The notes under the pieces were generated by a model, which was given only the letters and a program-made list of their open reading frames with translations, had not been told where the DNA came from and did no database searches. The translations under genes and the position numbers were made by a program. This document shows positions 6,666-24,924 of a DNA stretch of 25,467 bases, one piece after another (position 1 is the first letter of the stretch; each line of letters begins with the position of its first letter). Origin of the DNA: a virus; IMG/VR virus record IMGVR_UViG_3300025122_000137, positions 1 through 25,467 of that record; one strand, 5' to 3'.

Positions 6666-7694
6666 ATGGCTGCTTTATCTGTTAAAAACCCTACTCTTCT
6701 TGATCTGGCGAAAATCACCGCTCCAGACGGGTCCATTGCATCCGTCGTCGAAATCCTCAATGAGACTAATGAGGTGCTCGCCGACATGACGTGGATTGAG
6801 GGTAACCTACCCACCGGCCACCGTTCGAGTATTCGTGCCGGTATCCCGACGCCCACATGGCGCAAACTGTACGGCGGCGTTCAGCCGAACAAGTCGACCA
6901 CAGTGCAGGTCACTGACAACACTGGTATGTTGGAAGCCTACTCCGAGGTCGATAAAGCTTTGGCTGATCTGAACGGCAATACTGCGTCGTTCCGCTTGCA
7001 GGAAGACAAACCTCACATCGAAGGCATGAACCAAGAGATCGTCAGCACTCTCTTTTACGGCAATGAAAGCACGGAGCCTGAAGCCTTTACCGGCTTGTCT
7101 CCGCGTTTCGCTAACCTGACTTCCGATGCGAACTCCGATAACGTCATTGACGGCGGCGGTTCCGGTTCCGACAACGCTTCCATCTGGTTGGTTGTTTGGG
7201 GTCCGAGCACCTGCCACGGCATTATCCCGAAGGGTTCTAGCGCCGGCCTCAAAGTAACCGACATGGGCGAGCAGACTATCGAAGACGCCTCTGACGGAAG
7301 CAACTCTGGCCGCATGCAAGCCTATCGGACGCATTACCGTTGGGACGCTGGCCTCACTGTTCGCGATTGGCGCTATATCGTGCGCATCGCCAACATCGAC
7401 AAGTCGGCTTTGATCAGGACTTACACCGCCGGCACATTCGCCGCCGGTGCTATCCTTCCCGACCTGATGTTCCAGGCGCTTCGCTTGGTTCCGAACCTTT
7501 CCGCTGGCCGTCCTGCTTTCTATATGAGCAGGGACATCGCCACCTGGGTTGCGCGTCAGAGCGCGGCCATGGGTAACGCCAACGCTGTCACCATCGACAC
7601 CGTTGCCGGCGATACCAAGATGACCGAGCGGTTCAATGGTATTCCGATGCGGCGTGTCGATGCGCTCTCCGCTGACGAAGCTGCCTTAACTTAA
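6666..7694 (+). CDS. Major capsid protein
   Basis: A 342-residue protein following the scaffold gene behind an AGAGAAAGGGC ribosome-binding site. Recognisable parts are the N-terminal NPTLLDLAKITAPDGSI, the LPTGHRSSIRAGIPTPTWRK segment (about 49-68), a loop-rich middle, the GLTVRDWRYIVRIANIDKS helix, and the C-terminal GIPMRRVDALSADEAAL. These match the major capsid family of BPP-1-like and many environmental podoviruses. That family has an HK97-type fold, with an altered chain topology described for BPP-1. Its codons are unusually regular (Gly GGC, Ala GCC/GCT, Asn AAC), as expected for a very highly expressed gene. The cement protein gene follows directly. Confidence 0.92.
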   Translation: MAALSVKNPTLLDLAKITAPDGSIASVVEILNETNEVLADMTWIEGNLPTGHRSSIRAGIPTPTWRKLYGGVQPNKSTTVQVTDNTGMLEAYSEVDKALADLNGNTASFRLQEDKPHIEGMNQEIVSTLFYGNESTEPEAFTGLSPRFANLTSDANSDNVIDGGGSGSDNASIWLVVWGPSTCHGIIPKGSSAGLKVTDMGEQTIEDASDGSNSGRMQAYRTHYRWDAGLTVRDWRYIVRIANIDKSALIRTYTAGTFAAGAILPDLMFQALRLVPNLSAGRPAFYMSRDIATWVARQSAAMGNANAVTIDTVAGDTKMTERFNGIPMRRVDALSADEAALT

Positions 7695-7717
7695 TCGGTG
7701 GATGAAGGAGATAAACC

Positions 7718-8194
7718 ATGATTATGGACGAAAGACTTGAGTTCGCTGATGACGTAAGTGTTGCGGCGGCTGCTGGTACCGCGCTAATCGGAAGTCAGAT
7801 AGATATGACTGTTGCTCGCGACATTGGCAACGGCCAGCCTATCTATGTGGTTATCCGTACGGGTGGCACCGAGATCATCACTGGCGGCTCTGCTGGTACC
7901 CTTCAGTTTAAAGTGGCTTCCGACGCTACGGCTGCTATTGCGACTGATGGTTCAGCGACTGAGCATATTCTTACCGATACGCTTGTCACCGATGATGCGA
8001 GCAACAACTCTGCTCTCTTCAACGCTGGCGGGCTTATCTACTTCGGCGCACTTCCGCAGGAAGGCCCCTCTTACGAGAGGTTCCTTGGCATCCTTGCCGT
8101 GACTGCCACCACCACGACTACGGCGGGTACGATTAATGCGTATCTGACGTTCGACGCGGCTGGCTGGAAGTCCTACGCGGACGCTAGCAACTAG
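7718..8194 (+). CDS. Bbp16-family capsid cement protein
   Basis: A 158-residue beta-rich protein starting MIMDERLEFADDVSV, with ARDIGNGQPIYVVIRTGG and a T/G/A-rich second half ending in LTFDAAGWKSY. This pattern (M..D..L.F.D, then DIG.G.P.YVV) matches the Bbp16 capsid cement/stabilisation proteins. In BPP-1 the cement protein is a jellyroll that decorates and clamps the major capsid shell. It lies 23 bases after the capsid gene with a near-ideal ribosome-binding site (AAGGAGAT), and a strong hairpin follows, so a high expression level matching the capsid protein is expected. Confidence 0.85.
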   Translation: MIMDERLEFADDVSVAAAAGTALIGSQIDMTVARDIGNGQPIYVVIRTGGTEIITGGSAGTLQFKVASDATAAIATDGSATEHILTDTLVTDDASNNSALFNAGGLIYFGALPQEGPSYERFLGILAVTATTTTTAGTINAYLTFDAAGWKSYADASN

Positions 8195-8203
8195 CAGATT
8201 GTG

Positions 8204-8237
8204 GGGGGGAGCTAAGGCGCTCCCCCCAACGATCTTT
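8204..8237 (+). terminator. Strong hairpin after the capsid/cement genes
   Basis: A nine-pair stem, GGGGGGAGC (8204-8212) and GCTCCCCCC (8219-8227), closes a six-base loop, followed by AACGATCTTTA. The stem is very stable, but the following T run is short. It may be a leaky intrinsic terminator or an RNA 3'-end stabiliser that raises capsid mRNA over downstream genes. It begins ten bases after the cement protein stop. Confidence 0.6.
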
Positions 8238-8250
8238 ATGGAGAGAAGAC

Positions 8251-8604
8251 ATGATTGTAGAGTTTAAAAATACATTTCATGTGCCGGGCTTCGGAAGACG
8301 ACGGTTTGAGAGGGGCGTTGTTTATGACGTGCCTGATGCGTTGAAGACCATCTTACCTACTTCTGCTAAAATCCTTCCTTCAAGTTTTGCGAAGGACAAG
8401 GAGCAGGAGAAAGCAAAGGAAGAACTTCACGTGGCTGACTTAGCCCGTGCTGCGTCGGAAGGCACCGCACAAAAGGCACTCGAACAGGCCGGTATGGCTG
8501 GTTATGTGGACGCGAGCGACGAAGCTCCCGTCGACGCAGAACCAGAGGTTCAGGCCAAACGATCCCCTGGAAGACCACGCAAAAAGAGAGGATTTTGCAC
8601 ATGA
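8251..8604 (+). CDS. Small protein with AT-hook-like C-terminus (117 aa)
   Basis: The N-terminal 45 residues (MIVEFKNTFHVPGFGRRRF, then GVVYDVPDALKTIL) look like a small beta-barrel-type domain often found just after podovirus capsid genes. The middle is helical and charged (KEQEKAKEELHVADLARAAS). The end is RSPGRPRKKRG (107-114), which carries the GRP core flanked by basic residues typical of an AT-hook, a minor-groove DNA-binding motif. Function is unknown. A head-completion or DNA-contacting virion role is possible by position. It overlaps the next gene by four bases (ATGA at 8601-8604). Confidence 0.75.
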   Translation: MIVEFKNTFHVPGFGRRRFERGVVYDVPDALKTILPTSAKILPSSFAKDKEQEKAKEELHVADLARAASEGTAQKALEQAGMAGYVDASDEAPVDAEPEVQAKRSPGRPRKKRGFCT

Positions 8605-9764
8605 AAACGCTCATGAAAAGTCTGCTGTTGGTTGCACTGCTCGCTTTTGTCCCTGGCTTGGCTAAGGCTGAGTTTGGGTATAAGATTGACAGCGCCACGG
8701 TAGACGACGTAACGACTACTGCTTGCACTACTGGGCGTAACCAGACAGTCAGCGGTTTCTTCAACGGCGTAGATGCCGATCAGATTTGGCGGCTTGAGAA
8801 AGAAACCGGTTCCCGGGGTTCTGGCGCTTGGCGCCCGATTTCGGGGTACTCTGATGTATTTCCGACTGCCAATGGCGGTGCTGCGGTTGCTAACGCGGTC
8901 CAGATTATGCGCTATAGCTCAGAAGAGGCTGCCTGTTTCCGTCTCCACATGACTACGGACGGCGGCGGCACTGCTCAGGTTCAACTCGTAACGAACCGTG
9001 ACAATGTTACGGCTAATCAGCCCCGCTCCACCCACTTTGAACTCTTTGACGATTTCTTCCAGAGTCTTCTTCCGGTGGCGGCGCTAGGCAGTCAAGCCGA
9101 TTGGATTGGGTTCTTAGGAACTTCCCAGAACAATGTTGTGGCCATTGGTGAGGCTTCCCCTGAAGGTATTATGACCTTGACGGGCGGCGACACTGGCGAT
9201 ATCGAAGATTATTCTGAAGTTACTCTCGGCCTCGATGCTTATGGGGCTACCGTCAGCGAAGGTTTGATTATCTTCGAAGCTCGGCTGTCCATGGAAGACA
9301 TTGATGCTGGCGACGTGAACTTCGGCCTAACTGAAGATGTTGCGGTTAACGCTCACGAAGAGAATGAGTTCTTCGTGAACACCAATGTCATCACCGACAA
9401 ATCGACGGTCGATAGCGCAGTGATGTTTGCGTATTCTTCGGATGCGTATCTGCCTCTACTTTGGCACGCTGTCTCGACCAACGGCACGGCGATTGGTAAT
9501 GCTGCTGATGAATATTCCCTCGGGAACTCCCCGACTGCGGCCACCTACCAACTCTTCCGTATCGAAGTTGATCCCACCGGCCATGCTTATTGGTACGTCA
9601 ATGGCTTGCTGATGGGTGTGGAGCCTCTGGCTGTCGCAGTTGCTGCTACGCTGATGCCTTACTTTGGCGCTGGCTCAGCGGTTGATTGCGCTGGCAGTTG
9701 CGACGTAACGAAACTCGATATTGATTACGTGTACTTCTCGGGCGCTCGTCCGTCTGGTACCTAA
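8601..9764 (+). CDS. Lectin-like structural-cassette protein with Sec signal peptide
   Basis: The ATG at 8601 is chosen: it forms ATGA with the upstream stop and follows an AGAGAGGA site (a TTG six bases earlier is less likely). The 387-residue product begins with a textbook signal peptide: basic MKTLMK, hydrophobic SLLLVALLAFVPGL, and cleavage predicted after AKA (residue 23). Residues 24-145 look beta-rich. Residues 146-385 resemble the concanavalin/LamG-like domain common in phage decoration proteins (FELFDDFF..., EARLSMEDID, YWYVNGLLMGVEP, DIDYVYFS). The mature part has four cysteines (C42, C112, C363, C367), an even number that would suit disulfides outside the cytoplasm. A signal peptide on a gene inside the head-tail cassette is unusual. 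It could be a secreted or periplasmic protein, or a decoration protein with a hydrophobic N-terminus. Family assignment is moderate, and the signal peptide is clear. Confidence 0.75.
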   Translation: MKTLMKSLLLVALLAFVPGLAKAEFGYKIDSATVDDVTTTACTTGRNQTVSGFFNGVDADQIWRLEKETGSRGSGAWRPISGYSDVFPTANGGAAVANAVQIMRYSSEEAACFRLHMTTDGGGTAQVQLVTNRDNVTANQPRSTHFELFDDFFQSLLPVAALGSQADWIGFLGTSQNNVVAIGEASPEGIMTLTGGDTGDIEDYSEVTLGLDAYGATVSEGLIIFEARLSMEDIDAGDVNFGLTEDVAVNAHEENEFFVNTNVITDKSTVDSAVMFAYSSDAYLPLLWHAVSTNGTAIGNAADEYSLGNSPTAATYQLFRIEVDPTGHAYWYVNGLLMGVEPLAVAVAATLMPYFGAGSAVDCAGSCDVTKLDIDYVYFSGARPSGT

Positions 9765-9780
9765 TCTAAGACTTTAGGGC

Positions 9781-9820
9781 GCGGTGGTATCACGTGATAC
9801 CACCGCCCCGCCTCTTCTTT
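9781..9820 (+). terminator. 26-bp perfect palindrome followed by a T-rich tract
   Basis: The stretch 9781-9806 is a perfect palindrome that folds as an 11-pair stem around ACGT. It contains the core GGTATCACGTGATACC (9786-9801). The following CCCCGCCTCTTCTTTTC is pyrimidine/T-rich, so an intrinsic terminator after the signal-peptide gene is plausible. The same core at two other block boundaries, without T tracts, suggests the core also has another role. Confidence 0.55.
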
Positions 9821-9833
9821 TCGGGAGATCGCC

Positions 9834-10433
9834 GTGGCTGCTATAAGCAAAGTCCGTATCGCCAACATGGCTCTGTCGAATATCGGCGCCAAGTCAACTA
9901 TCGAGACGTTCGTAGAAGATAGCGCTGAAGCCCAAGAGATCGACCTCTGGTACGACTACAGCCGCCTTCAAACCCTGATGGCTGCTGATTGGAGTTTCGC
10001 CCGGCGTCGTCTCACGCTTACTACGCATACGGAAGACCCCCCAGGCACCTGGGGCTTCCGCTATGTCTACCCGGCGGACTGTATTTCGTTCCGCCATATC
10101 CAGCATCCCTCGGGCCAGCAAGCGGACGCCATCCCTTTCGAGATCGAGATCGACGCAACGCTTCAGAAAAAGAGCATCCTGACTGATCTGGATGACGCCA
10201 TCGGCGTTTATACCTTCGACCTTGAGACGGTCGATCTCTTCTCCCCGATGTTCGTGGATATGCTGTCGTTTGCCCTGGCATCCCATATTGCCTTCGCGCT
10301 CACCGGCAGCCTCGAACTACGCAAAGAGATGGGCGGAACCTTCTCAGAGATGCGGCGCGTGGCTCCCGCCGACAACGCCAACGAACAAGTAGGACGCTCT
10401 CCCCGAGAAGCTTCATGGATTAGGGACCGCTAA
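9834..10433 (+). CDS. Tail tubular protein A-like head-tail adaptor
   Basis: A 199-residue protein beginning at a GTG (9834) behind a CGGGAGA site. The order of features fits the podovirus tail tube A/adaptor family (T7 gp11 type): helix ISKVRIANMALSNIGAKSTI, then EIDLWYDYSRLQTLMAADWS, then beta segments with FRYVYPADCISFRHI and KKSILTDLDDAIGVYTF, and a C-terminal helical part (DMLSFALASHIAFALTG). It should form the ring that docks under the portal and starts the tail. It is the first gene after the palindrome at 9781-9806 and ends one base before the next start. Confidence 0.85.
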   Translation: MAAISKVRIANMALSNIGAKSTIETFVEDSAEAQEIDLWYDYSRLQTLMAADWSFARRRLTLTTHTEDPPGTWGFRYVYPADCISFRHIQHPSGQQADAIPFEIEIDATLQKKSILTDLDDAIGVYTFDLETVDLFSPMFVDMLSFALASHIAFALTGSLELRKEMGGTFSEMRRVAPADNANEQVGRSPREASWIRDR

Positions 10434-10434
10434 C

Positions 10435-13400
10435 GTGGCCCGATTTATCCAGCCTTCCTTCGCGAAGGGTGAGATCGGCCCTGCCCTCTACGGGCGCGTC
10501 GATATCGCTGCGTATGGCGTTGCTCTCAAGACGGCGCGTAATACTATCGTTCATGCTACTGGCGGTATCAGCAATCGCCCTGGCACGAAGTTCATCTGCC
10601 CTGTCAAGACCCATACGATCACCCCCACGCTCGTTGACTTCCAATTCAAGGCGTCCGATACCTACATCCTTGAGTTCGGCAACCTGTATATGCGGGTGAT
10701 CCGTAACGATGCCCAGGTGCTCACGGATATTGACGCGACGAACACGATCACGGGGATCACGGCAGCTAATCCTGGGGTAGTAACCACTGGAACGCATACT
10801 TACTCCAACGGCGACCATGTCTTCCTGACAGGTATCGTGGGGATGACGGAACTCAATGATCGTTGGTTCATCGTCTCAAGTAAGAGTGCAACGACGTTCC
10901 AACTGACCGACCCGTACGACGGTTCCACGGTAATTGACACCTCTGGGATGACTGCATACTCTTCCGCCGGCTCGGCAGGGAAAGTCTTTGAGCTTACCAC
11001 CACCTACGCTACTGCCGATCTCCCTCAACTCAAGTGGACCCAATCGGCGGATACGCTGACGATTACTCACCCGACGTACCCGCCACGGGAAGTCACTCGC
11101 ACCGGCCATAACGCTTGGACGATTGCGGATATTACGTTTGCTCCTTCTATATCAGCACCCGCTAATGTTGTGGCTACTGAAATTGGGGGACCTCTCACCG
11201 CAGAAACTTGGTATTACACAGTAACTGCTGTTTCAGCGAGTGGAGAAGAAAGTTTACCTGGATTAGGTACAGGGAATATTGCTGATGTATCGGTTGCAAC
11301 TGCGGCTGATCCGGTTGCAATAACTACGGTCGGGGCGCATGGTTTTTTCGATGGAGACGAAGTAGAGATTAGTGGGTTTACGGAAATGACGGAGGTAAAT
11401 AACCGTCGTTTTACCATAACAAAAACCGGGGTTTCTAGTTTTACGCTAGATGGAGAAGATGGCTCAGGATATATTCAAGAAGACACAGGAGGAAACACTG
11501 TTACTCCAGCTTTTAATTTTGAGTTAGCGGGAGATAGCCCCGCCGTGCAAGTTGGGTGGTCGTTAGTGGCAGGTGCGGCGAAATACAATATCTACCGGAG
11601 GAGATTGAAGGGGGATATTTTTGGGCTACTTGCGTCTACTAAAGAAGTTACATATATTGACCGAAGTGTAACCCCAGGCACCGCAGGGACAGAACTCGCT
11701 GAGACAGACGCTAGCATTACCCCACCGTTTTTACGAAATCCGTTTCGTATAGCTAGCGAATTTCCTGGGGCTGTTGGCTATTACCAGCAACGCCGAGTTT
11801 TCGGAGGGTCAACAGGGAAGCCTGATACTTCTGATTATTCTCAAACAGGAAATCAAAAGAACTATACTGCGGGGGGTACTGCTAGCGAAGCTATAACCGC
11901 GACCTTAACCTCCCGCAAAGTGAACCAAATACGCCACTACGTCCCGGGGAAAGATTTAATGATCTTGACGGATGGCTCTGAGTGGCGGATTAATTCAGGC
12001 GACAACTCTGGTTTCTCCGCAGATACGCTTAAACAACAGCCGCAGACGGAATGGGGTGCTAGCCATCTGCGCCCGATTACCATTGGCCCGGTTATCCTAT
12101 ATGTGCAGGAGAATTTAATCTCCGTCAGAAGCCTTAACTACCAATTGAAGGCCGATGCGTACAGTGGCACCGACTTGACGCTCCTAGCCCCTCAAATCTT
12201 CGATGATACCACTGCTGTATCGTGGGCGTTCGCCCGCTCTCCCGATCCGCTGATCCACGTCGTTCGTGCTGATGGCACTGCTGGCGTCTTTACCTTCGAT
12301 CAGGAGCAAGAGGTTCTGGCGTGGTGCCGATGGGACACGCTTGGTAAATTCAAGTGGTGCGCGGCCATGCGGCCTTCCTCGACAGACGTTACTGATGCTC
12401 CCTACTTCGTTGTCGAGCGGGTGATCAACGGGAACACTGTCAAATTGATTGAGCGCGTCGCTAGCCGTAGGTTCTCCACAATTGAGGACGCCTACTTCGT
12501 CGACTGCGGACTGAGCCTTGATACGGCACTGACGATCACGGGCGCTACGGCTGCCGATCCGGTCGTTGTTTCGTCCACCGCGCATGGCTTCTCGGATGGC
12601 GATCTGATTGATATCGAAGGGATCGAGTGGACGAAAGCTTTCGATACCGACGACAACGAGACTAACCCTGACCAACTCAATGGGCGCCGGTACTACGTCG
12701 TCGATAAGAACGCTAATGATTATACGCTGGTAGAGAGCACGAATGGGAAGCCAATCACGGGGATTACGGAAGCTGATCCAGGCGTAGTGACTGCGCCAGC
12801 CCACGGCTTCGCAGACGGCGACATTATCGGCATGACCTCGATTGGGGGCATGACCGAGGCCAACAACAATATCTACAAGGTGGCGAATAAGACGGCGGAT
12901 ACCTTCGAACTCAATAATGTGAGCGATGCCAACATCGACACGTCAAGCGGCTTTACCACTTACACTGGCGGGGGCAACATCTATCATGCTGTCGACGGCT
13001 CTGCTTTCGCCGCCTACGTGAGCGATGGCAAAGCCCGCGTCGCTGTACTCACCCTATCCGGCCTCGACCACCTTGAGGGCGAGACGATCTCGATCCTCGC
13101 CGATGGCTCTCCTGTCACTGGCAAGACGGTGTCGAGCGGTACGATCACTCTTGACACGCGGGCGAGCCGTATCCACGCAGGATTGAAGTACATTTCCGAC
13201 TTTGAACCCTTGAACGTCGAGGCTTCTGACCGTACAATACAAGGAGCATTCACGAAGTTCTCAAAAGTTAACGTCCGTTTCCAGAAGTCCAGGGGTATGC
13301 TAATTGGGCCGAACACTAGCCAGTTGCGTGAGATGAAAGAGCGGGAGTTCGAGAAGATGGGGGAGCCGACAGGGCTATTTACGGGGGACCGCGAGGTGAT

Positions 13401-13500
13401 CTTGTCGCCTAAGTGGGATAGCACCGGACGCTTCTTCATGCGGCAGAACCTGCCTCTTCCCTGGACGATCCTAGCCATCATACCGGAGATCACCGGATGA
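10435..13500 (+). CDS. Tail tubular protein B-like large tail protein with FCCH/FN3-like domains
   Basis: A 1021-residue protein starting at GTG 10435, one base after the previous stop, behind AGGGA. The N-terminus (MARFIQPSFAKGEIGPALYG, ARNTIVHATGGISNRPG) and the core 440-690 (GYYQQRRVFGG, NQIRHYVPGKDLMILTDGSE) match tail tube B/nozzle proteins of podoviruses. Inserted are four FCCH-like repeats (about 105-178, 288-345, 700-768, 774-850). Each has the pattern HGF.DGD...I.G...M.E.N.R.F.V......F.L. An FN3-like domain (about 240-420; TWYYTVTAVSASGEESLPG, then AGAAKYNIYRRR) is interrupted by the second FCCH copy. Bases about 11150-11900 look more A/T-rich with AGA/AGG/TTA/GGA codons, suggesting acquired modules. 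The product should build the tail nozzle, and the extra domains may contact the host surface. Confidence 0.85.
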   Translation: MARFIQPSFAKGEIGPALYGRVDIAAYGVALKTARNTIVHATGGISNRPGTKFICPVKTHTITPTLVDFQFKASDTYILEFGNLYMRVIRNDAQVLTDIDATNTITGITAANPGVVTTGTHTYSNGDHVFLTGIVGMTELNDRWFIVSSKSATTFQLTDPYDGSTVIDTSGMTAYSSAGSAGKVFELTTTYATADLPQLKWTQSADTLTITHPTYPPREVTRTGHNAWTIADITFAPSISAPANVVATEIGGPLTAETWYYTVTAVSASGEESLPGLGTGNIADVSVATAADPVAITTVGAHGFFDGDEVEISGFTEMTEVNNRRFTITKTGVSSFTLDGEDGSGYIQEDTGGNTVTPAFNFELAGDSPAVQVGWSLVAGAAKYNIYRRRLKGDIFGLLASTKEVTYIDRSVTPGTAGTELAETDASITPPFLRNPFRIASEFPGAVGYYQQRRVFGGSTGKPDTSDYSQTGNQKNYTAGGTASEAITATLTSRKVNQIRHYVPGKDLMILTDGSEWRINSGDNSGFSADTLKQQPQTEWGASHLRPITIGPVILYVQENLISVRSLNYQLKADAYSGTDLTLLAPQIFDDTTAVSWAFARSPDPLIHVVRADGTAGVFTFDQEQEVLAWCRWDTLGKFKWCAAMRPSSTDVTDAPYFVVERVINGNTVKLIERVASRRFSTIEDAYFVDCGLSLDTALTITGATAADPVVVSSTAHGFSDGDLIDIEGIEWTKAFDTDDNETNPDQLNGRRYYVVDKNANDYTLVESTNGKPITGITEADPGVVTAPAHGFADGDIIGMTSIGGMTEANNNIYKVANKTADTFELNNVSDANIDTSSGFTTYTGGGNIYHAVDGSAFAAYVSDGKARVAVLTLSGLDHLEGETISILADGSPVTGKTVSSGTITLDTRASRIHAGLKYISDFEPLNVEASDRTIQGAFTKFSKVNVRFQKSRGMLIGPNTSQLREMKEREFEKMGEPTGLFTGDREVILSPKWDSTGRFFMRQNLPLPWTILAIIPEITG

Positions 13501-14505: not shown

Positions 14506-17478
14506 ATGGCTAGTTCAGTTCCTTCCAGCACAGTACGCTCAAGTGATATTGGGACGTTCAAGACCGTTCTGCCTAATGTGCAGCAGCAGAATATCTCTGC
14601 GGGTGCTCAGGCCATTGTCGAGGCCGGGGATAAGACGCAAGCGTTCGGAGACCAACTCGCTGTCCTCGGCGCTCAGGAGCAACGGGAAGAGGAAGGTCGT
14701 CTCGCTGAAGATGAGAAGCAGCGTTTCCAGAGTTTTAAGGACGACAAGTTCTATGGGAAGGACGGGTTATTCACTAAGTCGGGCGCCGCGTTCGGGGCCG
14801 CTAGAGCAGGTACTCTTAGCGAGATAAGTTCATTTCGGAAACGCCAGGCTGAGCGGCTACAAGGCACAACGCAGAAGATATTTAACAACCAGACAAAAGA
14901 TCTCATGCAGGGCTTCGAAACGAAAGTGGCCATCGCGAATGTGTCGGAGCAGCGAGTTGCGTGGCAGAAGACGATGAACCGGGCTGCGAAGCAAGCTCAA
15001 ACTGACATGATGAACGCAGACCCCTTCAGCGCCGAGCAGCAAGACGCGAAAAAAGAATTAGAGCAGATGATCGCCGCTACATTCGAGAGAGCGGGCGGTG
15101 GCACTGACGACGATGGGAAGGATTTCAATAACTTCCGGCGAGAGAAACTAGGGCAAACTCACAGCCTTGTCGTACTTGACTTGCTTACAAAAGATCAGCT
15201 TGTCGTAGCGAAGAAATATTTTGCAGAGAATGAAGACGAGATGACGGGGGAACAGAAGATAGAAGTTCGGAAAGCATTGAAGAGAGATGCGCGGGAGCGA
15301 TTAGCCATTCTTAATACGGAAGTGAATGACACGGTTGATGTGTTGGACGATGGTGGTCTTGTTCCTGCCGGCACGGTGAAAGACCAAGAAAAGAGATTAG
15401 TAGTTTTAGGAAAAGCTGGCGTACCAGCCTTGAAGAAGTTGCGGGAAGCTGCACATGACAATCCTCTCGTTCGCGCCGATAAGACCAAACCCTTAGCAGA
15501 GCGAAAGCGTAGTCTTGCGAAGCTGCAACAGAAGTTTGCCACGGAGCCCTCGACCGGTGCAGAAAAGCGTTTACTAGAGAAGTTACGGCAGTCTTTGAAG
15601 AAGACCGAAGATAGTATTACGAAAGGAGAGGGACTGCTGGCGGCAGCAGAAGATGGGCTTATCTCTCCCCTTCAAAAGCTGGACCTTACGGACCCGGAGA
15701 GTTATAAACAGCGAGCCATCCAGGCAGCGCAGGTGACTGAATTATATGGCACCTCGATCCAACCGATGCTTCCCGTCGAAATCAAGACCCTTAATGAAAT
15801 AATCATGGGGCGTAGCGGTCCTCAGCGCTTGAAAGCTGATAATGACCCTGGCAGTGCTGCTGCTTCAGTAGGACGAACGGTCGCTATCCTCGCTGCGATG
15901 AAAGAGGGGCTAGGCAAAGAAGTCGCAGAAAGCATGGCTGCTAAGGCGATTGAGACTAGCGGGGCGGCGTCCATGGTGATGGCTATCGCGCCGACTAATC
16001 TAGAGCTAGCTGAGAGGATCATCTCTGGCCTTCGCATCATGCAAGCTAGCTCAGATTTCACTCCCACTAAAACTAACAGAAACAAGGAGGGAGACAGCGT
16101 ACTGGAGAACACTTTTGCTGGTGAGTTTGGTCCCACACGGGATACCATACTCGATGCGGCGGACGCGCTCTACGCGCTGAAAGCTAGCGAGGCTGGCAAT
16201 ACCGAGTTCGACCCGACGTTGTATGAGCAAGCTATCAACGAGGTGACCGGCGGGATATTGAAATCCGGTAACCGGTCGGTGATGGCGCCTGTCCCCGGGA
16301 TGCAGCAAGGGCCATTCGATGACATGGTGGAAGCGCTGACCCCCGAGAGCATGTTACAATTTGGTAGCGCGGCTCCTGTGTTTGCCGATGGAACGCCATT
16401 CACTCCTGACTTGCTAAACATTCCCACTTTCTCTTCGGGCGTCGATGCTGAGCTAGTCTCGACCGGGTTCGGGAAGTACATGGTCTTCATGCCGGGCAGC
16501 GGTTTCGTTCTCGGCGATGACGGCAATCGGTACGAGATTGATCTTCGCGCCTACCAGGAGGAAGGGCAAGCAGAAGCTGATAGAACAGTCTTTGAGCGCG
16601 GTGGCAAACGTAAGAGAGTAGATGTCGAAACCCGCAAACTGCAAGTCGGTGAGCAACCAGGTATCGACGACTTCGGGGCGGCGGTCGAGCAGTTTGAACT
16701 CGACGCGGCCCAGCGCCGAGCGGCTCAAAAAAAGAGGGCCGCCAAAGCGGTATCGAGGCCGTTCCAGGCGGACTTTGAGCGCGGTGGCAAACGTAAGAGA
16801 GTAGATGTCGAAACCCGCAAACTGCAAGTCGATCAGAGTACGATAGTTCCAGATATTGGAGCCTCCGCTGAGCGATTTGGAGAAGAATTTGAGGCGGCGC
16901 AACGCGACCCCCGAAAAGCTAAGCCTCTCGGGACTGTGAGTATCAAGGATGCCTCAAGTATATGGGGGGTTGCGTTCCAGACCAGCAACGATCCGAAGAA
17001 GATTAAAACTTTTCAAGAGAACGTGAAGCGCTTCGCTGCTAATGCTGATCCAGCTATCATACGAACCATCCAAGACACGGTAGCTCGGGGGTTCTCGGGG
17101 GACGAAGGAACTAATCCCGCGAAGCTGCAAGATATAATGGTGCAGATCGGGTTGCATGAGAGCGCTGGCTTTACACAAAAAGTGCAGAAGGGAGGACCGG
17201 CGCGAGGCATTCACCAAGTAGAACCTGCTACCGTAAGGTCCCTCATAGCACAATCTAACAAGCTGCTAAATTCCAAGAATGCCAGGACGAGAAAGAGAGC
17301 CTTGCTTGGCTTAAATGCGAGGCAGATTTTGCAAGAGCAAGGTTTCGACGTGACTAAGAAAGTTTCTACGCGACAGATAGAAACCTTCCTCGCGGATGAT
17401 ATCATTAGCACTGTTTTCGCTACGGCCCAACTGCTTACAGGAGCCAAAGCGAATAAGATATTGAAAGCGTTACAGTAA
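14506..17478 (+). CDS. gp15-like internal virion protein with C-terminal lysozyme-like domain
   Basis: A 990-residue protein two bases after its neighbour. Residues 1-600 are mostly long charged helices (for example EQREEEGRLAEDEKQRFQSF), as in T7 gp15-type core proteins that form the periplasmic ejection tunnel. Residues 690-780 contain an exact 19-residue repeat (FERGGKRKRVDVETRKLQV at 696-714 and 757-775), encoded by a 59-bp perfect repeat. The last about 130 residues look like a peptidoglycan hydrolase. The segment GLHESAGF has a candidate catalytic Glu (E885) and is followed by PARGIHQVEPAT (898-909), the usual 'G..Q..P.T' companion motif. This would make a local hole in the cell wall during DNA entry. 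In T7 the transglycosylase is at the start of gp16 instead. Confidence 0.78.
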   Translation: MASSVPSSTVRSSDIGTFKTVLPNVQQQNISAGAQAIVEAGDKTQAFGDQLAVLGAQEQREEEGRLAEDEKQRFQSFKDDKFYGKDGLFTKSGAAFGAARAGTLSEISSFRKRQAERLQGTTQKIFNNQTKDLMQGFETKVAIANVSEQRVAWQKTMNRAAKQAQTDMMNADPFSAEQQDAKKELEQMIAATFERAGGGTDDDGKDFNNFRREKLGQTHSLVVLDLLTKDQLVVAKKYFAENEDEMTGEQKIEVRKALKRDARERLAILNTEVNDTVDVLDDGGLVPAGTVKDQEKRLVVLGKAGVPALKKLREAAHDNPLVRADKTKPLAERKRSLAKLQQKFATEPSTGAEKRLLEKLRQSLKKTEDSITKGEGLLAAAEDGLISPLQKLDLTDPESYKQRAIQAAQVTELYGTSIQPMLPVEIKTLNEIIMGRSGPQRLKADNDPGSAAASVGRTVAILAAMKEGLGKEVAESMAAKAIETSGAASMVMAIAPTNLELAERIISGLRIMQASSDFTPTKTNRNKEGDSVLENTFAGEFGPTRDTILDAADALYALKASEAGNTEFDPTLYEQAINEVTGGILKSGNRSVMAPVPGMQQGPFDDMVEALTPESMLQFGSAAPVFADGTPFTPDLLNIPTFSSGVDAELVSTGFGKYMVFMPGSGFVLGDDGNRYEIDLRAYQEEGQAEADRTVFERGGKRKRVDVETRKLQVGEQPGIDDFGAAVEQFELDAAQRRAAQKKRAAKAVSRPFQADFERGGKRKRVDVETRKLQVDQSTIVPDIGASAERFGEEFEAAQRDPRKAKPLGTVSIKDASSIWGVAFQTSNDPKKIKTFQENVKRFAANADPAIIRTIQDTVARGFSGDEGTNPAKLQDIMVQIGLHESAGFTQKVQKGGPARGIHQVEPATVRSLIAQSNKLLNSKNARTRKRALLGLNARQILQEQGFDVTKKVSTRQIETFLADDIISTVFATAQLLTGAKANKILKALQ
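16590..16831 (+). repeat. 59-bp exact direct repeat within the gp15-like gene
   Basis: The copies at 16590-16648 and 16773-16831 are identical over 59 bases and 183 bases (61 codons) apart, so both are read in the same frame. Each encodes FERGGKRKRVDVETRKLQV. The zero synonymous divergence points to a recent duplication or ongoing gene conversion. Confidence 0.95.
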
Positions 17479-19934
17479 TGGCTTTCTTCAGCCAGGATCA
17501 ATTAACCTCTGCCAACGAGACTGCGCAGCGTAGCCCTGCTCGGCCACAAGCTACGCTCGGAGAGGCCACAGAGGCCGCATGGCGAATGCAGCTTGACCAA
17601 CGCTCCTCGCTCTCCGCGGGGAACGCCATCTTTGATGAGTATGAGGATTACCGGAGCAAAGTCCATAAGCTCACGGGGGTCCGTCTCTTCAACCCTTATA
17701 CTCCGACCTTCTTTGAGGCAAGCGAGCAACGCCAGGAGAGTGTTTTCTTTCGGCAGGTTGAGAAGTTGCGGGAGCAGTCTGCCGACAACCTTGAGCCGGA
17801 TGACGAGTTCCCAACTCGCTCCCCAAGTGAGATACGCAGAAAAATCGCTAATGACCGTGCTAGACAACGCGCCGAGGCAGCCGACATTGAGGAGCGTTCC
17901 AGAGGCTTCATAACTAACCTGGGCGGCTTCGCGGGGGCGGCGGCTGCGGCAACGATTGATCCGCCAGTTCTCGTCAGTCTGGGGTTGGGTATGCCCTTCT
18001 CCTCTGGCATCCTAATCGGCGCGCTGGTAGACGCGGGGGTTGGCATTGTCTCGGAGACGGTGGTTCAGGCCAGCGTACAGTCAAGCCGACGAGCCTTCGG
18101 GGAGGAGCCGAGCCTCAAGGAAGCCCTCACCACCATAGCAGCGGTAGGCGGTGGCAGCTTCGCTCTCTCAGCTTTCCTACGCGGGGGAGCGAAAGGTACG
18201 AAGGCACTGGTGGCCAAAACTAAGCAACTGCCGGATCGCTTCCGCACCTCTGATGTGCGAGCGGCAGAAGATTACCTGACGAACCAGCATGAAGTGGCAG
18301 CCTCTAATCCTTTCCCTGAGACTGCCGCCGGGAAGCAACTTCACGCTGAGAGCTTAGATCAGGCTATGGATCGTCTGATGCAGACGACAGCTCTGGATAT
18401 GGTGCGCGCCTCGGGAAGAGAAGCAACCACTCCGCTTCAATTCGAGGTGGCGGAAACGACTGTTACGCGGGGCGAAGATGTCGGAGCTTTCGGCGCTCGC
18501 GTCGAGGCTACCGATCCTCCACTGTTCGCGAGGGCGAAGGAAGTACGCGACCGGCTGGTGGCTATAGCGGCGCGGATCAAGGCCATTGACGCTCGGCTAG
18601 AGACCCCCTCAGTGGCAGGGGAAGCCGACAAGGTAGCCAAATTGCAGCAGCAGCTAGCAGAGGCGACCGATAAGCGCAAGATCAAGCGGTTGCAGCGCCA
18701 GATCGACGAAGCTAATAAACGCGCCGGGGGAGATGCCACCAAGAAGGCACGCGCCGATAAGAGCCAGCGGACAAAACTGGCAAATGAGAAGAAGAAACTA
18801 CGCGCCGAAGCAAAGCCTCTTGAGAACGAGGCAAGGCGGCTGAGTAAAAGAACTGGCCGAGCCGCGCTCCGGGTTACCGCCGAGACCACGAAGCGGCGGG
18901 TTTTCGAGATCAAGCAGATCGTTGGCGACGGCGAGGCCACCTCTATTAAAGCTGGACAGGCAGCCGACTTCGCCACCGTTGTCTCAGAAGCCGTTTCCCG
19001 TGGCCCAGCGAAGCGCGCTGTAGAGCCGACACAACCTGCGAAGAAAGCAGGGTTGCTGCCTGAGTTTGAAGAAGAGATTGTGCCAGCGGAAGGAGCGGTG
19101 GAAGATGTTTTCGATTTAACTGACGAGCAACTACAGCAAGAATTTGATAAATTTCAGCGCCAAACCTTTGAAGGGCCGGAACTGACAGATGCTGAAGATG
19201 CTCGGTTTAAAGACGTGCTTGATGAACTTGCTGATCGTGAACAGGCGCAAGGAAATGTGCTTGATCAGATCGAAGCCGAAGCTGAAGCAACGCCGGGAGA
19301 ACGAGCCGAAGCGCAAGCTAAACTAGCGGAACGGCGAGCACGTCAAGGGTTGCCGGAAGGCCGGAAGTTCACACCCCAGCGTGTTATCGAAATCATGGCG
19401 CGCAATACAGAAGACGCTCTTAACTTTGAACGAGTGCGGGAAGAGTTTGACGGGGCTGGGAATGTTTTTATAGAAGTTAAAGATTTTCCGGTAGACCGTT
19501 TACGAGGGGTTGACGATGTCGATCCAGCGGGCGCCGCGAATGAAAAAGGAGCTATCATCGTAGCGGCAGACGGAACAATATTAGACGGGAGACACCGGGC
19601 TGCAAAAGCGATCCAAGATGGGCAGACGACCATCAACGCCATAGTTGGGTTTCATGCGCGTTCTCGTCCTGCGAAGTCTACGGAAACCCCAATTACCCCG
19701 GATGCCCGGGCTGCTGCGGTGCCTGAAACTCCCGCCGCGCAAGCTGTCAAGGACGATACCATAGAGGCACAGATACGCGAATTGATTGACCAGAACCCGA
19801 CCGCCAGGATGGAGGTTGTCGATGCCGACGGCAACATTAGTCAGATTTCAGCGCAAGATATGCTTGACGACTTAGCGGATGATCAGAAACTGTTGAACGA
19901 AATTAAAGGCTGCATAGCAGGAGCAATCACATGA
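17478..19934 (+). CDS. Large injected virion protein with ParB/sulfiredoxin-like domain
   Basis: An 818-residue protein starting one base into the previous stop (TAATG). Segments: a polar start (1-140); a hydrophobic glycine/alanine-rich region (147-235, including GFAGAAAAATI and SSGILIGALVDAGVGIVSE) that could insert in membranes; a long, highly charged coiled-coil (350-480, K/R/E/A-rich); an acidic linker; a small domain at about 660-725 (VFIEVKDFPVDRL, then AIIVAADGTILDGRHRAAKA); and a tail with SAQDMLDDLADDQ. The DGRHRAA motif (703-709) after a beta-strand is the hallmark of ParB/Srx-fold domains, some of which are nucleases or nucleotide-using enzymes. Such domains occur in phage 'polyvalent' proteins delivered with DNA. 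The segment 19090-19680 prefers GAA/GAT/TTA more than its flanks. The domain call is moderately confident, and activity is unknown. Confidence 0.7.
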   Translation: MAFFSQDQLTSANETAQRSPARPQATLGEATEAAWRMQLDQRSSLSAGNAIFDEYEDYRSKVHKLTGVRLFNPYTPTFFEASEQRQESVFFRQVEKLREQSADNLEPDDEFPTRSPSEIRRKIANDRARQRAEAADIEERSRGFITNLGGFAGAAAAATIDPPVLVSLGLGMPFSSGILIGALVDAGVGIVSETVVQASVQSSRRAFGEEPSLKEALTTIAAVGGGSFALSAFLRGGAKGTKALVAKTKQLPDRFRTSDVRAAEDYLTNQHEVAASNPFPETAAGKQLHAESLDQAMDRLMQTTALDMVRASGREATTPLQFEVAETTVTRGEDVGAFGARVEATDPPLFARAKEVRDRLVAIAARIKAIDARLETPSVAGEADKVAKLQQQLAEATDKRKIKRLQRQIDEANKRAGGDATKKARADKSQRTKLANEKKKLRAEAKPLENEARRLSKRTGRAALRVTAETTKRRVFEIKQIVGDGEATSIKAGQAADFATVVSEAVSRGPAKRAVEPTQPAKKAGLLPEFEEEIVPAEGAVEDVFDLTDEQLQQEFDKFQRQTFEGPELTDAEDARFKDVLDELADREQAQGNVLDQIEAEAEATPGERAEAQAKLAERRARQGLPEGRKFTPQRVIEIMARNTEDALNFERVREEFDGAGNVFIEVKDFPVDRLRGVDDVDPAGAANEKGAIIVAADGTILDGRHRAAKAIQDGQTTINAIVGFHARSRPAKSTETPITPDARAAAVPETPAAQAVKDDTIEAQIRELIDQNPTARMEVVDADGNISQISAQDMLDDLADDQKLLNEIKGCIAGAIT

Positions 19935-22509: not shown

Positions 22510-24924
22510 ATGACTGTAACAAATACAACGAAGAAGGTAGCGGGTACCGCAGGAGACGGTAGTAACACTACTTTCTCGTTCAGCCCAATGGTTATCTATG
22601 CTGCTTCCGAGTTGGAGGTGGTAACCACCGTTATCGCCACGGGCGTGGAAACCACACGCTCGCAGGGGACGGGTGACAGCGCTTGGAGCATCTCGATCAC
22701 GACGTTCCCCGCCACCGGCTCCATCACATATCCTGAAGACGAAGTGACGCCGCTGCCGGCGACGGAAACCCTGAGCATCCGGCGCGTTCTGACGATTGAG
22801 AACCAGCTTGACTTGGAGCACCGGGGAACATATGCTCCTGCCGCTCAGGAAACGCAATTCGACAAGATCGCAATGATCCAGTTGCAGCAGCAGGAAGAAA
22901 TATCCCGCTGCCCACGGATCAAGATGTCGGACACCACCACAACGACCACGGCATTGTCGGCAGACATCGTTACCCTGGCAGCCATCTCTACGGACGTAAC
23001 TGCGGTTGCCGGTCTAGCCAACTCCTTTACGTTCACTACGACTTTCGGCTCCGACCAGATTGACGCGACGGCGCACCCGCTTGCGAATGGGGATAGATTT
23101 ACAGTCACGACTTCAGCGAGTGACTTGCCTAGCGGACTATCAACAGCTATTACATATTTCGTGGTCACTGACGCTGCCAATAGCTTCCAGGCTTCGTTGA
23201 CTTCTGGTGGTGCAGCGGTTGCTCTCGCCGACGATGGAACTGGCACCCACACGGCGCACTACGGCTCTATAGTAACCGGGGGCTCGCTCGACAGCGCATT
23301 ATTAACGACTGTCGCCGGCATCTCGGCGAACGTAACGACTGTCGCCGGCATCTCGGCGAACGTAACGACCGTCGCCGGCATCTCGGCGAACGTAACGACC
23401 GTCGCCGGTATCAGCGCCAACGTAACGACCGTCGCGGGGGTCTCAGGCAACGTCACTACGGTTGCAGGTATCTCAGCCGACGTTACCACGGTTGCCGGTA
23501 TCAGCGCCAACACCACCACTGTCGCAGGTATCTCGGCTGACGTAACGACCGTAGCTGGCATTAGCTCAGACGTGTCGAGCGTGGCTTCTCAGTCCCACCA
23601 CTATAAATTTGATACGTCTACCACACTCTCAGAAGACCCCGGCACAGGGGATATCCGGTATAACAATGCCACCCCCGCCTCAGTGACGGTCATATCACTG
23701 TCCAATACTCCTAGCGGTGGCTCTGACATCTCCCCCTTCATCGTCACTTGGGATGATAGCACGAACGCAATAGCTGGTACTATCACTATCCAAGACGCGG
23801 ACACAGCCACCACTTTCCAAATCTTCTCAGTCACTGGCTCAGTTACAGACAGCGGCGCTTGGCTCGAAATCCCCGTAACTCACGTAGCCGGCACAACGCT
23901 CCCTGCGAGCACAGATGATCTCTTCCTCTCGTTCTCGCGCACGGGCAACGATGGCGCTGGTTCGGGGGATATGACAGCGGCCAACAATCTATCCGACGTA
24001 GCGTCCGCTGCGACATCTTTCGGCAACATCAAACAGGCTGCGACCACGACAGCCACAGGTGTTGTCGAACTGGCGACGGGCGCGGAGACTAATACTGGGA
24101 CCGACACAGCGCGAGCGGTTACACCAGATGGCCTGGACGATTGGACCGGTAGCACACAGATTGCTACAGTCGGAACTGTCGGTACAGGCGTTTGGCAGGG
24201 CACCGACGTTGGCGTTGCCTACGGCGGCACTGGAGCATCCACTCTCACTGACGGCGGGATTTTGCTAGGCTCTGGTACTGATCCAATTACCGCGATGGGT
24301 GTTTTGGCCGACGGGTCAATCGTCGTTGGCGACGGCTCTACTGATCCGGTTGCGCTTGCAGCATTCTCGTCCTCGACAGGTAACCTCGTCGCCGCAAAAG
24401 GTGGCACCATCGGGCAGCAAACTATCTGGTGGCCAGCGGGAGCAATGGAACCCGCCGTGACGACTGCCCCCGCAACATCGAATGTCGTCGAAATTGGCAC
24501 TTCGCTCTTCGCGGCAAGGACGATGGACTTTGCAACTGATGCTGACGACTATGCCTATTTCGGCCTTCAGATGCCCAAAAGTTGGGATGCTGGTACGTTA
24601 GTTTGTCAGTTTGTCTGGTCAGCTACGGGGACCACTGCTAATACCGTTCTTTGGGCGATCGCAGCCACATCATTGGGGGACGATGAAGTCCTCACCACTG
24701 CTTTTCCGGCGGCCGTATCTCCCGCGGCCGATACCAACAGCACCACGGCTGACGATATAATGATATCGGCCGAAGTGAGTGTCACTGTTGGCAGTACTCC
24801 CGCGGCCGAAGACTATGTCATGTTTGAAGTCAGTCGAGATGTAAGTGGTGACACACTTGCTGAAGATGCACGGCTTCACGGCATTCGGATACATTATACA
24901 ATAGATACAGGGAATGACACATAA
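22510..24924 (+). CDS. Tail fibre protein (T7 gp17-like N-terminus)
   Basis: An 804-residue protein behind an AAAGGAT site. Residues 1-135 resemble the T7-type fibre attachment domain (GDGSNTTFSFSPMVIYAASE, LSIRRVLTIENQLDLEHRGT). Then comes a repeat region. A degenerate unit (about 151-170) is followed by an inserted FCCH-like domain (170-255; HPLANGDRFTV..., TYFVVTDAANSFQASL). Nine tandem 10-residue units (consensus TTVAGISANV, 266-355) come next. Residues 360-640 are beta-rich shaft with a typical fibre segment AYGGTGASTLTDGGILLGSG. The end (from WWPAGAMEP) resembles a C-terminal domain seen in many environmental phage fibres (MPKSWDAGTL, YVMFEVSRDVSGDTLAEDAR). It should form a trimer, attach to the tail and contact the receptor. 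Confidence 0.87.
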   Translation: MTVTNTTKKVAGTAGDGSNTTFSFSPMVIYAASELEVVTTVIATGVETTRSQGTGDSAWSISITTFPATGSITYPEDEVTPLPATETLSIRRVLTIENQLDLEHRGTYAPAAQETQFDKIAMIQLQQQEEISRCPRIKMSDTTTTTTALSADIVTLAAISTDVTAVAGLANSFTFTTTFGSDQIDATAHPLANGDRFTVTTSASDLPSGLSTAITYFVVTDAANSFQASLTSGGAAVALADDGTGTHTAHYGSIVTGGSLDSALLTTVAGISANVTTVAGISANVTTVAGISANVTTVAGISANVTTVAGVSGNVTTVAGISADVTTVAGISANTTTVAGISADVTTVAGISSDVSSVASQSHHYKFDTSTTLSEDPGTGDIRYNNATPASVTVISLSNTPSGGSDISPFIVTWDDSTNAIAGTITIQDADTATTFQIFSVTGSVTDSGAWLEIPVTHVAGTTLPASTDDLFLSFSRTGNDGAGSGDMTAANNLSDVASAATSFGNIKQAATTTATGVVELATGAETNTGTDTARAVTPDGLDDWTGSTQIATVGTVGTGVWQGTDVGVAYGGTGASTLTDGGILLGSGTDPITAMGVLADGSIVVGDGSTDPVALAAFSSSTGNLVAAKGGTIGQQTIWWPAGAMEPAVTTAPATSNVVEIGTSLFAARTMDFATDADDYAYFGLQMPKSWDAGTLVCQFVWSATGTTANTVLWAIAATSLGDDEVLTTAFPAAVSPAADTNSTTADDIMISAEVSVTVGSTPAAEDYVMFEVSRDVSGDTLAEDARLHGIRIHYTIDTGNDT
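23305..23574 (+). repeat. Nine tandem 30-bp units inside the tail fibre gene
   Basis: Nine in-frame 30-bp units encode TTVAGISANV and close variants. The first three are nearly identical at DNA level, while later ones diverge mainly at third positions. There are no spacers, so this is a protein repeat and not a CRISPR array. Repeats of this kind form fibre shafts and can change copy number by slippage or recombination. Confidence 0.95.

Follow-up and report, generated by a model that had tools for sequence, protein, structure and literature searches.

A ConA-like protein with a predicted Sec signal peptide, encoded among the head genes of a BPP-1/epsilon15-type podovirus, and its signal-less homologues at the same place

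Why should a gene lying among the head genes of a tailed phage encode a protein that begins like a substrate of the Sec pathway? The window analysed here is the whole of a virus fragment of 25,467 bases, and its cassette is, on sequence grounds, of the BPP-1/epsilon15 podovirus type. It runs from the small and large terminase genes through a small gene, a head-tail adaptor (portal-like), another small gene and a gene of protease/scaffold type to the major capsid protein, and then through a Bbp16-like cement protein, a small gene, the gene in question (P0001), tail tubular proteins A and B and internal virion proteins to a repeat-bearing, fibre-like gene. The capsid protein is of the GP7/Bbp17 type (6666-7694; PF20911), with BcepC6B (58.9%) and BPP-1 (56.5%) as its best named matches. 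Next come the cement protein (7718-8194; phrog_427, and PF21190 with an E of 6.4e-4, below the Pfam cut-off) and the small gene of 117 aa (8251-8604). P0001 occupies 8601-9764, from its ATG at 8601 to a stop at 9762-9764, and encodes 387 aa; it overlaps the preceding small gene by ATGA and has a Shine-Dalgarno-like AGAGGA 8 bases upstream (8587-8592), while the gene of tail tubular protein A type (9834-10433; phrog_394) lies beyond it. The features given here with coordinates are all on the plus strand. The small gene, to which PHROGs assign no family and for which Pfam gives nothing above the cut-off, bears a VPGFGRxRF ... LP..A.IL sequence and is also kept in relatives that lack the putatively exported gene.

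P0001 itself matches no Pfam or PHROG family, and direct searches found no relatives of it in phage records (tblastn) or, with the single protein, in viral contigs; phage records searched with two other members gave no match either. Relatives were retrieved through the neighbouring capsid gene. Among the ORFs of the best 80 of 456 capsid-matching stretches, blastp detected homologues in 31 loci other than the window, and alignment searches added more, many of them on contigs already among those found. Where both flanks are present, the homologues lie between the Bbp16 or capsid gene and tail tubular A, the same place as in the window. They fall into a close group, 36-64% identical to P0001, and a distant one, whose identity is 23-27% across most of the protein in those with a ConA-like part in common; direct homology between the groups is seen, for instance, with L035 (27% over 343 residues, E 2e-15).

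Does the start of P0001 behave as a signal peptide among these relatives? Its N-terminus reads MKTLMKSLLLVALLAFVPGLAKA^EF, in which a basic n-region is followed by a hydrophobic core and by AKA at -3/-1, so that residues 1-23 (8601-8669) would form a signal peptide of the Sec/SPI type cut after A23; there is no cysteine near the cut and no twin arginine. In place of a SignalP-type predictor we used a rule devised for this analysis, which asks for Lys or Arg ahead of a core of ten uncharged residues whose mean hydropathy is at least 1.8, followed by small residues at -3/-1. All 19 close-clade homologues pass it, four of them cut off later by the contig end, as against none of the 28 distant or short homologues and 9 of 604 unrelated ORFs from the same loci, for which every Met in the first 40 residues was allowed as a possible start. 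Alanine stands at -1 in 19/19, and -3 is Ala or Val. The first-pass annotation had proposed a Sec signal peptide with an AKA site, and this is borne out; whether the hydrophobic start fails to recur in relatives was also looked at, and every member of the clade keeps the pattern. Among 12 representatives (66 pairs) the signal sequences share a mean pairwise identity of 37%, against 57% for the mature part (N-domains 59%, ConA domains 56%). A diverged sequence with a kept pattern is the usual picture of a signal retained for its physical character. A lipoprotein reading was rejected since no cysteine stands at +1, and the earliest cysteine in any of the 19 members is residue 42.

The cysteines point the same way. 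The first-pass annotation had noticed that four of them lie in the mature part, as if the protein folded in an oxidising place, and they do behave as disulfide pairs would: C42 (8724-8726) with C112 (8934-8936), and C363 (9687-9689) with C367 (9699-9701). In the 15 full-length signal-bearing proteins the number of cysteines is always even (2, 4 or 6), compared with 7 of 26 distinct complete signal-less proteins, the other 19 having odd counts. Moreover, the 12 cysteine columns in the alignment of those 15 form six pairs with identical distribution within each, as if gained and lost together: in P0001 numbering, 42/112 (13 members), 363/367 (3), 206/356 (2), 259/264 (2), 329/344 (2) and 170/207 (1). 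L022 and L044, without the 42/112 pair, carry 329/344 instead. These counts are inflated by the kinship of the members, and the 170/207 pair is a single sequence. The pattern is what disulfides predict, and the protein is probably disulfide-bonded. Export to an oxidising compartment is the best-supported step of what follows, and we regard it as very probable. One may still ask whether the hydrophobic start is an uncleaved segment for membrane interaction or assembly in the virion, the protein being an ordinary virion appendage. The position in the structural block and the signal-less relatives at the locus would suit such a segment. We consider it very unlikely, as a membrane anchor gives no reason for the persistence of Ala at -1 and Ala or Val at -3 throughout the clade, and the cysteine pairing is confined to the signal-bearing clade.

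What kind of protein would be exported? An AlphaFold2 model of P0001 was built from a 12-row alignment (pLDDT 68.4, pTM 0.77). In this model residues of about 137-384 match GH16/ConA jelly rolls in a fold search (E about 1e-6), and the match to VIA has a Z of 17.3 and an rmsd of 3.2 over 187 residues. By this modelling the C-terminal domain (about residues 143-387; 9027-9761) has the ConA-like lectin/glucanase jelly-roll fold, which agrees with the concanavalin-like domain first suggested from the sequence. Names of botulinum binding domains in the fold list were set aside as by-catch of a common fold, and PDB sequence matches of P0001 (best E 0.41, with staphylococcal enterotoxin names) as chance. 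The closest folds are GH16 glucanases, so a secreted GH16-type enzyme that opens capsule or other envelope glycans has to be considered. The GH16 active-site signature is E-x-D-x(1,2)-E. P0001 lacks it and so do 17 of the 19 signal-bearing members, the two matches being EGDQE in the near-identical L063 and L067, and identity to solved enzymes of this superfamily is 7-15% among the matches listed. The enzyme reading was therefore set aside as highly improbable, and the modification of surface glycans suggested earlier looks unlikely in an enzymatic form. It should be noted that a ConA fold is in itself no proof of glycan binding, a point against the masking role proposed below.

The N-terminal domain (about residues 24-135; 8670-9005), modelled alone from 44 rows, is predicted to be a beta-sandwich (AlphaFold2, pLDDT 80.5), and it is common to the signal-less homologues. 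Its best solved matches include YomS (Z 9.3), a KP1 baseplate chain (Z 8.7), the KHP40 trimeric cement (Z 8.1) and the Pam1 capsid (Z 7.1), while unrelated GOLD, C1q and BclA domains score alike; against viral models there were weak matches only (2 at E <= 0.001). Since matches to virion proteins tie with unrelated folds, a virion role is not settled by fold.

As the first-pass annotation had thought worth checking, homologues without a signal peptide do occupy this locus. These (L028, L031, L035, L050, L065, L101 and short forms) have the same N-terminal beta-sandwich, in part a ConA-like C-terminus, and the same slot between Bbp16 and tail tubular protein A. They differ from P0001 in a MASFTGVGDN-like start without a signal peptide, in the frequency of odd cysteine counts and in an extra linker element. 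Between two landmark motifs lie 54-60 residues in seven of the eight examined ConA homologues without a signal, the eighth (L076) departing from the pattern, and 24-30 residues in all 19 signal-bearing members, which thus lack roughly 30 residues of linker. The missing piece contains a D..GN.L...Q.G-like element; a loose pattern finds it in 20 of 28 signal-less proteins, and it is also present where the C-terminal domain differs. It may serve for coupling or oligomerisation, and the signal-less proteins are probably cytosolic, virion-associated appendages. One short signal-less member matches five phages of Rhizobium and one of Pelagibacter, but the likeness is confined to the C-terminal half of that member. 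For the signal-less group Pfam offered nothing better than an E of 0.02, and such weak matches were disregarded. Tandem paralogues of the family occur in one slot in L050 (7817-9499 and 10092-11180) and in L085 (4962-6155 and 6219-7262).

Such homologues bring us to the main rival explanation, that P0001 is a virion decoration that travels through the periplasm, becomes oxidised there and attaches to virions at lysis as a glycan-binding coat on head or neck. The slot and the two-domain family, which are common to cytosolic homologues beside capsid and cement genes, speak for it, as do the resemblance of the N-domain to a range of beta-sandwiches that includes cement and virion domains of phages and the side-by-side presence of a signal-bearing and a signal-less copy in L085. 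Against it stand the absence of the linker of the signal-less proteins from every signal-bearing member, the tie of the N-domain matches with unrelated folds, and the oddity of exporting, ahead of assembly, a part whose counterparts in relatives are made in the cytosol. Bbp16, the cement protein of BPP-1, and other decoration proteins resemble P0001 in being beta-sandwich auxiliary proteins, Bbp16 being encoded by the neighbouring gene of the cassette, but in the parts of the source consulted they have no signal peptide (PMC3863775); a term search of a review of decoration proteins gave no occurrence of signal peptide, disulfide or lectin (PMC7602432). We judge this explanation to be unlikely, though it deserves attention before the other alternatives.

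Is the gene then an integral part of the head or tail? The first-pass annotation had called it a head-tail cassette gene; it does sit in the structural cassette, and yet it is absent or deleted in close relatives. Both flanks are present in 62 of 81 loci; by these models the slot contains a signal-bearing member in 12 of them, a signal-less member in 15 and neither in 35. When the full records of 32 contigs in which no member had been detected were searched, many of these records being fragments, a stump in L002 was all that came to light; it consists of the signal peptide and twelve residues. The flanks of L020 and L022 are 92-95% identical as DNA, but some 1.09 kb, almost the entire gene, is gone from L020, in which only the gene start is left; in L032 a signal-like start is joined to a tail resembling the C-terminus of the family. 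In a quick-method capsid tree of 68 rows, which leaves out L001, whose capsid gene is truncated, and L086, whose contig has none, the signal-bearing label is scattered and needs 7 changes, all forced by starred branches. From the stumps, the missing bodies and the absence from close relatives we conclude that the gene is dispensable and has been repeatedly lost, an accessory cargo in a structural operon, gained and lost among otherwise similar phages as morons are.

How did two kinds of protein come to share one slot? The signal-bearing proteins form one side of a branch with support 100/100 in a 23-row tree, which is unrooted, so that it does not tell whether the signal was gained or lost. 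Signal-less forms are also found in distant capsid lineages (L111-L113), which favours, short of proof, a gain of the signal. It might be, and we say so tentatively, that a family of virion appendages was re-routed through Sec: one clade would have acquired a signal peptide and disulfides, shed the linker by which the protein is coupled to the virion, and come to travel among phages as an exported lectin, masking the cell or coating virions from outside after lysis.

When would the protein be made? P0001 is the last gene of the head block and is followed directly by a strong hairpin before the tail genes (9777-9809; -28.2 kcal/mol for 9765-9822, z -6.2), terminator-like without a clean T run, and no forward promoter-like site was seen within 7690-10500, a weak test. 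It is therefore probably made late, together with the head proteins. Similar strong hairpins of changing sequence lie between the head and tail blocks in L002, L020 and L032, and the place looks like a conserved attenuator or terminator position. A gene that is patchy, deletable and last ahead of a strong hairpin could also be a moron-like cargo that modifies the host in ways unrelated to phage receptors, for example by altering adhesion or protecting the cell until lysis. Such a cargo is distinctly unlikely in our estimation: P0001 has no forward promoter-like site of its own, as far as the weak test goes, and neither a family member nor a host or prophage context was found in the genome collection, searched with the alignment A1, or in eight capsid relatives in bacterial genome contigs.

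What, then, could a phage gain from exporting such a protein? The reading that we prefer, with a little less than even confidence, is that P0001 is an accessory protein that masks, on the dying cell and on the debris it leaves, the glycan which the phage itself uses as receptor. Made along with the head proteins, it would leave the cytoplasm by the Sec route, lose its signal peptide by a cut after A23 and form its disulfides outside, so reaching the periplasm or the surface of an infected host that is presumably Gram-negative. At that site the ConA-like domain and the N-terminal beta-sandwich would bind an envelope glycan; the target would most likely be the envelope of the infected cell or lysis debris. 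The likely benefit of a receptor that is occupied or masked is that superinfection would be reduced and fewer progeny lost to fragments. The protein would belong to the same family as the cytosolic, probably virion-appendage proteins, without their conserved linker and with an export signal. The first-pass annotation had suggested coating or masking of the infected cell, a block to superinfection or a modification of surface glycans, and these are to be taken as proposals.

Several points weigh against masking. The retained N-domain would equally suit virion binding, and a protein made together with the structural proteins is a poorer fit to superinfection exclusion than one made early would be; superinfection-exclusion proteins are described as early-expressed in the sections consulted (PMC9586334). 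As no lipobox or surface anchor is present, the crossing of the outer membrane before lysis is left without explanation. The same source presents T5 Llp as a phage protein that acts from the periplasm against superinfection and against adsorption to lysed fragments (PMC9586334). P0001 would resemble Llp and Cor-type proteins in periplasmic export and in this benefit, while these, as described there, are small lipoproteins made early, and P0001 has 387 aa, no lipobox, a ConA fold and a place in a structural operon. Another case is ORF22 of P1312, with a signal peptide and a carbohydrate-binding module, for which the authors suggested secretion and a role against superinfection; it is a 1096-aa metallophosphatase of an actinobacterial phage (PMC4569894), and no homology to P0001 is shown. 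The portion consulted of a further paper deals with the signal peptide of an endolysin (PMC8951688).

Exported phage factors are already known, and what is notable here is the kinship with signal-less proteins of a structural slot. To our knowledge, exported proteins of tailed phages are mostly small lysis, lipoprotein or exclusion factors, and our searches of the open PMC literature brought up neither a description of such a family nor any account of a ConA protein of a structural slot with a signal-bearing homologue. The present protein is large and lectin-like, has signal-less homologues in the structural slot, and combines a conserved putative export signal with disulfide-like cysteines. 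Can parts of a virion be turned into agents that act on the cell surface or coat the virion? The question is directly testable by comparison of phages with the exported protein, with the cytosolic one, with both and with neither.

Some other features of the fragment may be mentioned. The 818-aa presumed internal virion protein encoded at 17478-19934 contains GTILDGRHRAAKAIQDG, which may resemble a ParB-like DGRHR motif; no Pfam match supports the likeness. In the gene of tail tubular protein B type (10435-13500), three stretches match PF16190 (E1_FCCH, E 6.9e-28), a model named for a eukaryotic enzyme domain. The fibre-like gene at 22510-24924 holds a 30-base tandem repeat of 8.6 copies (23303-23561), which codes for TTVAGISANV-like decapeptides and gives a weak match to the Pfam Decapeptide model. 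Finally, upstream of the terminase genes (854-1052) the palindromic motif AGCCTTGGCT/AGCCAAGGCT is clustered, with copies in either orientation, in what may be a regulatory or packaging region.
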